Position numbers and translations under genes: made by a program. Under the pieces are notes generated by a model. It made no database searches. It was given only the letters and a program-made list of their open reading frames with translations, and had not been told where the DNA came from. A stretch of 64,000 bases of DNA from Thermosipho sp. (in: thermotogales) (lineage in GTDB: Bacteria > Thermotogota > Thermotogae > Thermotogales > Fervidobacteriaceae): the NCBI GenBank assembly GCA_030153605.1, contig JASKLO010000005.1, positions 1 through 64,000 on the forward strand. The letters run 5' to 3'. Below, one piece after another: positions 2,541 through 34,766 of this stretch (position 1 is its first letter; every line of letters starts with the position of its first letter).

Positions 2541-3638
2541 ATGAAATGTAGGGGATGTGGAGTAGAACTCCAAACTATTGATCCAGAAAAACCCGGATAT
2601 ATTCCAGAGCATGTTCTTGAAACAGAAGATGAGCCATTATGTCAAAGATGTTATAGAATTGAACATTATGGAAAATTAACTATACCTATTGAAGAAGAAT
2701 TATTTCTTCACAAAATTGAAGATATAACAAAAGATTTTAGAAAGATTCTTTATGTTATAGATCTAACTGATTTCGAAGGAACTTTTAGAAATGAAATAAT
2801 GGATTATTTGAGAGAAAAAGAAGTTTTTTATGCTATAACCAAGTTTGATTTAATGCCGAGATCACTTAGTTCTATTGAAGTTCAAGAGTGGCTTAAAGTA
2901 AGGTTGAATACTGATTCAGAACACATATTCTTGACTAGCAGTAGAAATGGATTTGGATTAAAAAAACTTGAAAAGTTTTTAAAATCTCTCAAAGAAGATA
3001 TACTTGTTATAGGTGTTACAAACGTTGGAAAATCTTCGTTAATTTCTAAATTTACTGATTCTTCACCTACAATTTCACCATTTCCTGGAACCACTTTAGG
3101 AATATTAAAAAGAAAAATTAAGGGTTCTAAATATTATATTATTGATACTCCTGGAATTTTAACAAATGACAGAGTTATTGATCTTCTTACACCAGAGTGT
3201 CAGGCCAAAATTTTAAATACAAATCAATTAACTAGAAAGACTTATAAATTATCAGATGATAGGGCAATATTGATAGGGGCATACTGTAAAATAGAATTAG
3301 AATATGATTCAGAATATTTGCCCATATTTCAGATTTTTGCACCAAAAAATGTGAAATTTCATGAAACAAAAAAGGAAAAAGCGGATGAATTAATGAGAGA
3401 AAGAGCAGGAGATTTACTCATTCCACCTTGTAAAAAAGATGAAATGAAGGATATAGAATGGAAAGAACAAGAATTTAATTTAAATGAAGAAAAAGAATTG
3501 GTTATATTTGGTCTTGCTTTTATAAACGTTAAGAGAGGACCTTTTAAAATGAAGTTGAAAATTCCAAAGGATGTAAATGTTGTTGTTAGAAATAGATTAT
3601 TAAAACCGCAAAGAGGAGGTAAAAAGCATGAAAGTTAA
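2541..3638 (+). CDS. yqeH: Ribosome biogenesis GTPase YqeH-like
   Basis: N-terminal CxxC...CxRC zinc motif plus circularly permuted GTPase motifs (TKFD, GVTNVGKSSL, DTPG). Confidence 0.88.
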   Translation: MKCRGCGVELQTIDPEKPGYIPEHVLETEDEPLCQRCYRIEHYGKLTIPIEEELFLHKIEDITKDFRKILYVIDLTDFEGTFRNEIMDYLREKEVFYAITKFDLMPRSLSSIEVQEWLKVRLNTDSEHIFLTSSRNGFGLKKLEKFLKSLKEDILVIGVTNVGKSSLISKFTDSSPTISPFPGTTLGILKRKIKGSKYYIIDTPGILTNDRVIDLLTPECQAKILNTNQLTRKTYKLSDDRAILIGAYCKIELEYDSEYLPIFQIFAPKNVKFHETKKEKADELMRERAGDLLIPPCKKDEMKDIEWKEQEFNLNEEKELVIFGLAFINVKRGPFKMKLKIPKDVNVVVRNRLLKPQRGGKKHES

Positions 3639-5268: not shown

Positions 5269-5802
5269 TTATTCTAAACTTAACCCTAAAATAAATTCTT
5301 TGTTTGGAATATTTTTAGGAAGGATGAAATTTCCGAAGGAAGTTTTTAAGGTAATAAAATTTTTTGAGTTTTCAAACGAAATTTCCATTTTATATGGACC
5401 AAGGTAATTTGTACCCTTTTTTCTTCCACTACCAGAAACTTCTCTTTTGATTAATATACTATCGCTGTTTTTATTTTTTAAGATTTGATAAGTTACTTTC
5501 TTGTTTTTTCCATCTACATTTTCATAAAAGAAAAACTTTTTTGAATTAACAAAATGTATTTCTGAAATCCCTCGGTTATAAAAATCATGACGAATGTAGT
5601 TGATAATATGAAAAACACTTAAAGATTGAGTGTAATCTTTTTTTAATTCAAAATACCAATCGATTGTTGCATCAAAAATAAAAAAGATTGAAAATGTAAT
5701 TTCAAGTGCTAAAACAAAAACAATTAGAAATTCTATGTATGAAATTCCCCCTACCCCCCGGTCCTTACAAATTAAATTTTTCTTTTGGCGCTTTATCTTT
5801 TG
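5269..5802 (-). CDS. Type IV pilin/pseudopilin-like protein; start codon unclear (open region given; mature part ends at 5269)
   Basis: Minus-strand frame reads ..[64 protein letters not shown]...FILGLSLE*; G/IxxxE plus hydrophobic helix matches a prepilin N-terminus; no ATG/GTG/TTG before the motif. Confidence 0.6.
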
Positions 5803-6193
5803 CTATTTTGTCAAGAACACCATTAACAAATTTTCCGCTATTTTCTGTTCCATATGTTTTTCCAAGTTCAATTATTTCATCAATAGTAACTTCAATAGGA
5901 ACATCTGGGACATATATAAGCTCATAAGTTCCCAAACGTAAAAGGTTTCTATCTACCACAGAAAGTCTGTCAAGTTCCCAGTTTTCAAGGTGCTTTTGTA
6001 TAATTTCATCGATTTCAATAATTTTATTTTTAATTCCTGCAACATAGTCAAAAGCTTGTTTTCTTATTTTTTCGTCTTTCAATTTGTTTAGTTCATTTTC
6101 AGCAATTTTTTCTAGGTCAACATCTGATTGAAAGTCCCACTGAAAAAGTGTTTTAAAAATGTATTCTCTCATTCTGTGGCGTCTAGTTGCCAA
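5765..6193 (-). CDS. nusB: Transcription antitermination protein NusB
   Basis: 142 aa; [17 protein letters not shown] ... [18 protein letters not shown] ... [25 protein letters not shown]. Confidence 0.92.
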
Positions 6194-33909: not shown

Positions 33910-34766
33910 TCATTTGTATAATTCTAGGAAAATGTCTTCTAGTGCAGGACTTTTGATTTCTAGATCATTAAAATCTGTTTTTATTAAATCGTTTAAAAAT
34001 TCTTTTAATTTATTTGTTTTTATTTCAAAAACATAGATATTGTTTTTTTCAGAGTAATCATACTTTTTTAGATTATCTGAAAATTTAAGGTTGTAAACAT
34101 AAACAAGTTTTTTAGAAAAATCTCTAAGACTTTCAATTGTTCCAGATTTTACAATCACGCCGTCTTTAATCATTGCAAAGGAATCGCAAATTTTCTCTAC
34201 TTCTGAAAGAACATGTGAGGAGAATAAGATTGCGGCACCATTTTCTTTATGTCTTTTAATAAGTTCGTAAAATTTTTGTTGAACTAAAGGATCAAGTCCG
34301 TTTGTAGGTTCGTCAAGAATTAAATATTTTGGTTTATGCACTAATGCTTGTAAAATAGCAACTTTCTTTTTATTTCCAAGAGATAGATTTCTAAATTTTT
34401 TATTTAATTCTATTCCAAGTGTTTCAATTAATTCTTTTTCATATGATTTATCTATATTTTTGTAAAAGGAATTGTTAAATTCTAAAAATTCTTTACTTTC
34501 ATATCTCCATAAAAATTGACTTCCCCCGGAATATATCCGATATTTTCCTTGACTTTATCTATTTCAAATGGCATTTTAAAGTTTGAAATCAATGCTTCTC
34601 CCATATCAGGTTTTAAAAATCCCGTTAATATTCTTATTGTCGTAGTTTTTCCCGCACCATTAGGGCCAATAAGACCTAAAATTTCTCCTTCGTTTATTTC
34701 GAAGTTTACATTTTCTATTCCCCTACTTTTGCCATAATACTTCTTTAAATTTTTAACTTTAATCAT
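33910..34766 (-). pseudogene. ABC transporter ATP-binding protein interrupted by a frameshift
   Basis: N-part 34482-34766 (Walker [15 protein letters not shown]) ends MKVKNF*; the other frame continues EFNNSFYKNIDKSYEKELIETLGIELNKKFRNLSLGNKKKVAILQALVHKPKYLILDEPTNGLDP. Confidence 0.75.

Follow-up and report, generated by a model that had tools for sequence, protein, structure and literature searches.

Behind nusB, on the minus strand of the 64,000-nucleotide stretch of Thermosipho sp. DNA analysed here (the window), lies an open frame that resembles a type IV pilin gene and has no ordinary place to begin. How might it be translated, and what would it make? The frame spans positions 5802-5269 (177 codons plus TAA) and follows an in-frame TAG at 5803-5805. 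Re-reading of the DNA confirmed this stop-free, start-less stretch, as a sequence-only reading had described it. No ATG, GTG or TTG occurs in frame ahead of its ISYIE motif, and the earliest canonical start is codon 138 of 177. Among stop-to-stop frames of 120 codons or more, the window has just four with no canonical start within the first 40 codons. One of the other three is part of a split ABC transporter ATP-binding gene (33910-34766, minus strand), whose protein runs from an ATG frame (34766-34482) into a second frame (34554-33910); the break, near 34490-34500, is a real or a sequencing frameshift.

We propose, with a probability of about 0.65, that the frame encodes a leaderless minor pilin resembling ComGF or GspJ, initiated at an AUU codon at mature position +1 and available for a pilus tip complex. 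The features concerned are the following:

5765-6193, minus strand: nusB, the upstream neighbour in 18/18 members of family f1
5746-5802, minus strand: remainder of the open frame 5' of the inferred start, apparently non-coding in the pilin frame
5747-5759, minus strand: G-rich Shine-Dalgarno element GGGGGGTAGGGGG, from a predicted duplex with the 16S tail
5743-5745, minus strand: putative AUU start codon, occupying mature pilin position +1, from clade codons and outgroup leaders
5269-5745, minus strand: leaderless pilin-like gene of 158 codons and a TAA stop, with a putative ATT start (5745-5743); evidence from relatives, selection, an AF2 model and 18 junctions
5731-5733, minus strand: Glu5 codon (GAA), Glu in 18/18 family f1 members
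5572-5739, minus strand: long N-terminal helix, residues 3-58, in the AF2 model
5317-5556, minus strand: beta-strand domain of eight strands, residues 64-143, in the AF2 model

The sequence-only reading had the gene overlap nusB, but only the open frame does: the nusB stop is at 5767-5765 and the inferred pilin start at 5745, leaving 19 nt between them.

The frame is conserved. A search of whole genomes with the single window sequence, a check that the sequence-only reading had proposed, found homologues in 27 of 41 relatives, and a profile search found them in 55 of the 103 genomes of the class. Within family f1 the gene is present in 18 of 20 genomes, and the two without it are only 60% and 81% complete. 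Scanning of genome contigs with the single sequence gave no match; with the alignment, two Thermosipho MAGs were matched. In pairs of genus members dN is 0.12-0.26 against a dS of 0.8-1.7 or saturated, giving a dN/dS of about 0.1-0.25 where dS can be estimated, and third codon positions change most. Given these homologues and the low dN/dS, the open frame is not a product of chance, and its conservation indicates that it is a real gene for a conserved, minor-pilin-like protein of the Thermotogota.

The identification as a type IV pilin-like gene is supported by about 20 hydrophobic residues with Glu at +5 (18/18 in family f1) and by the lollipop fold of the AF2 model (mean pLDDT 93), in which the helix carries the eight-stranded domain. 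A Foldseek search of the PDB with this model yielded no structure at E<=0.001. The window protein received no Pfam or NCBIfam assignment, and its best sequence-profile match is weak, to the helix of the pilin PilE1 (E 0.28). Relatives from the f3 and f9 lineages match nearly the full ComGF model NF041002 (for example L064, residues 4-136 to model positions 2-124 of 139, E 0.0011), but all relatives score far below its 80-bit cut-off (17-22 bits among the family relatives listed); no genome of the class passes that cut-off, and the window protein is not matched. Another relative (L078) matches the first 60 positions of the GspJ-type minor pseudopilin model TIGR01711 (E 0.0003), in the N-terminal part only and below cut-off. 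By these weak profile matches of its relatives, the closest known proteins appear to be the ComGF/GspJ minor pilins.

Unlike ComGF, the gene does not sit in a comG-type operon; it lies behind nusB in family f1 and behind housekeeping genes elsewhere. GspJ proteins carry a leader. In described Com pilins the leader ends in Ala (PMC7212644), whereas the window protein has no leader. The genome does contain a prepilin peptidase gene, which the sequence-only reading had suggested looking for, as well as genes for a platform protein and for major and minor pilins that carry ordinary leaders (for example MKMRKGFTLIE); in the contexts examined, the pilin-like gene is not adjacent to other pilin genes. 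Two Thermotoga strains are known to be naturally competent (PMC5637354).

In the mechanism that we envisage, the G-rich Shine-Dalgarno element would recruit ribosomes, probably ones just completing nusB 19 nt upstream, and initiation at AUU would put fMet where mature residue +1 was formerly encoded. The resulting protein, (Met)-SYIEF..., would resemble a mature pilin in its hydrophobic helix and in Glu5 and would not need the prepilin peptidase cut. The helix would insert into the membrane, and the protein might become part of the tip complex in a type IV or competence pilus. The weak AUU start, normally discriminated against by IF3, would hold the amount low, and such a brake would fit a minor pilin that is needed in few copies and encoded behind a housekeeping gene. 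AUU initiation, coupling to nusB, incorporation into a pilus and low expression are what we infer; control of the start by IF3 is a guess. Counting against the proposal, Met followed by Ser is expected to be removed, so Glu would sit at position 4.

Alternatively, the same leaderless, AUU-started protein may derive from a pilin but no longer serve as a pilus subunit, its helix anchoring it in the inner membrane. Peptidase processing would have gone with the leader, and no other pilin genes lie alongside in the contexts examined. In the sister family f2, moreover, an alignment read by eye shows further erosion of the N-terminus, the start falling at about -2, +2 or +4, and another residue in place of Glu5. 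We nonetheless consider this reading unlikely for family f1, where 18 of 18 members keep Glu5, the partner in pili of the adjacent subunit's N-terminal amine (PMC10191384); such strict retention would favour use in a pilus over a plain membrane anchor.

Both readings share the AUU start, and among the options that the sequence-only reading listed for the missing start, a rare ATT is the one best supported by a comparison of 5' ends, a step it had also suggested. We read 18 junctions of family f1, nine from the Thermosipho clade and nine from sister species. The codon of mature residue +1 is ATT in seven, ATC in one and ATA in one of the Thermosipho-clade species, and GTG (3), TTG (3), ATG (2) or CTG (1) in the sister species. 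In seven of these sister genes no in-frame ATG, GTG or TTG lies upstream of +1, so the NTG codon at +1 is their first usable start. In the Thermosipho clade, the window and five relatives (L008, L011, L013, L014 and L015) have no in-frame canonical start upstream, and those five have an in-frame stop 2-7 codons upstream. In three others (L009, L010 and L012) a TTG lies in frame, 11-19 or more codons ahead of +1, which counts against an AUU start. An in-frame GTA was considered as the start in the window species and rejected, as L008 has TAG there.

The sequence ahead of +1 does not behave as a prepilin leader, whose last residue is invariably Gly or Ala (PMC10191384). Residue -1 is G, E, G, E, T, N, K, N and N in the Thermosipho clade and F, L or S in the sister clade, which amounts to Gly in 2 of 18 members and Ala in none. 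With five upstream stops and no start codon, the hydrophilic leader expected of a type IV pilin is absent. The stretch at 5746-5802 shows no conservation as protein across the 18 junctions, and its length and phase relative to the nusB stop vary. In the Ile-start clade the nusB stop and +1 are 12-36 nt apart (12, 13, 16, 17, 19, 21 and 36 nt, in phase 0, 1 or 2), against 57-106 nt in the sister clade, and all three phases occur among the 18. Because residue -1 is not conserved, stops occur upstream, and distance and phase vary, the upstream sequence is apparently not read in the pilin frame. What the comparison shows is a gene lacking both a conserved leader and a canonical start, with its start position kept. 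On the strength of the sister-clade NTG codons, the upstream stops and the unconserved residue -1, the gene most likely begins at ATT 5745-5743 on the minus strand. Gene callers limited to ATG, GTG and TTG would be blind to it.

A leader might instead be made by programmed frameshifting, readthrough or slippage on the G runs, from nusB or an upstream start. The G runs do lie close to the junction, L008 has an out-of-frame ATGGGGG, and the invariant Ile codon would also fit an ordinary coding residue if a leader were made by some unknown route. This is very improbable, as the phase from the nusB stop to +1 is 0, 1 or 2 depending on the species, the G runs are of unequal length, with an interruption in L010, the gap in the window and in L009 holds no start in any frame, and the leader residues are not conserved. 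A normal start hidden by a sequencing or assembly error in the G runs is scarcely credible: homopolymers are error-prone and the window gene at 34766-33910 does have a frame break, yet the genomes of nine separate species have no canonical leader at the same place, with differing gap sequences. The +1 frameshift from the end of nusB and the indel in the G runs that the sequence-only reading had entertained are both at odds with nine genomes sharing the arrangement with variable spacing and phase. A pseudogene with a locally decayed 5' end, suggested by the absence of a canonical start codon, can be set aside, since nine genomes share the arrangement, dN is far below dS, the frame is open in all relatives, and the Shine-Dalgarno element and start position are kept.

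Returning to the AUU start, the G runs at 5754-5759 and 5747-5751 on the minus strand probably form a non-coding Shine-Dalgarno element. Its predicted duplex with the 16S tail has an energy of -10.8 kcal/mol; values in the Thermosipho clade run from -9.3 to -12.2 kcal/mol, within the range of ordinary genes of the window, and the element of L010 is GGAGGT. The Gly codons that had been taken for a G/IxxxE class III cleavage signal would then be part of this element and not a cleavage site, in line with the unconserved residue -1. The gene has the features of known AUU-started genes, namely no canonical start, a conserved Ile-type codon and a strong Shine-Dalgarno element. The infC gene of E. 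coli is an AUU/AUA-started gene with a strong nearby Shine-Dalgarno sequence. The infC, cvfC1 and ccpN genes of S. aureus and pcnB of E. coli likewise combine an isoleucine-type start with a strong nearby Shine-Dalgarno sequence (PMC13009471), and in S. aureus AUU/AUA starts with extended Shine-Dalgarno motifs were measured to give about 10-30% of AUG output (PMC13009471). None of these genes is a pilin; in the present case the start would occupy what was once the mature +1 codon, in place of a lost leader.

Elsewhere in the window, five other runs of five to seven G (at 1246, 8489, 23839, 45260 and 45669) lie 4-7 nt ahead of the ATG or TTG of an open frame, which suggests that G runs commonly act as Shine-Dalgarno sequences in this AT-rich genome. 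In four Thermosipho-genus genomes (L105, L107, L109 and L110), infC has no canonical start at the expected place and likely starts at ATT or ATC behind GGGAGGGG.

The history of the leader can be traced in the outgroups. Family f9 has an ordinary leader, MKKG|ISLIE, the f3 lineage has MHFSSG|YSLVE and one f2 member has MKKESRGG|VILIE; these leaders end exactly before the residue aligned to the window ATT. In a maximum-likelihood tree all Ile-start sequences form one clade (98/95) and all NTG sequences another (100/96), the two being joined at 99/96, and the Ile-start clade reaches down to about 39% identity. The simplest history would be a single loss of the leader in the ancestor of family f1, with the start codon shifted to +1. 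It is possible, though we would put it at somewhat below even odds, that the whole family makes a type IV pilus subunit that is already mature, bypassing the peptidase and keeping Glu5, and that AUU, AUC or AUA limits the amount via IF3 in the Thermosipho clade. Our search of a limited library (leaderless or unusual minor pilins, Thermotogota pseudopilins, Thermosipho pili) found no report of such a leaderless pilin gene. Cleavage by prepilin peptidase is regarded as the defining step for type IV pilins; if a conserved protein of this kind does begin at the mature residue, a minor subunit can evidently do without that step. A leaderless pilin would also make testable the purpose of cleavage and N-methylation, and would add a deeply conserved AUU-started gene besides infC.

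Other members of the group also vary at the N-terminus. Part of family f3 has Ser at -1 and a variable Glu5. One f3 locus (L070, genome G023, near 3460 on the minus strand) has no ATG, GTG or TTG just ahead of its APFAFSMIEV region; it has GCG where a cousin has GTG, and may start at ACG or another odd codon. Two f2 loci (L092 and L099, genomes G022 and G020) have ATA AGT at the aligned start where a cousin has ATG AGT; a GTG lies a few codons upstream, making their start uncertain.
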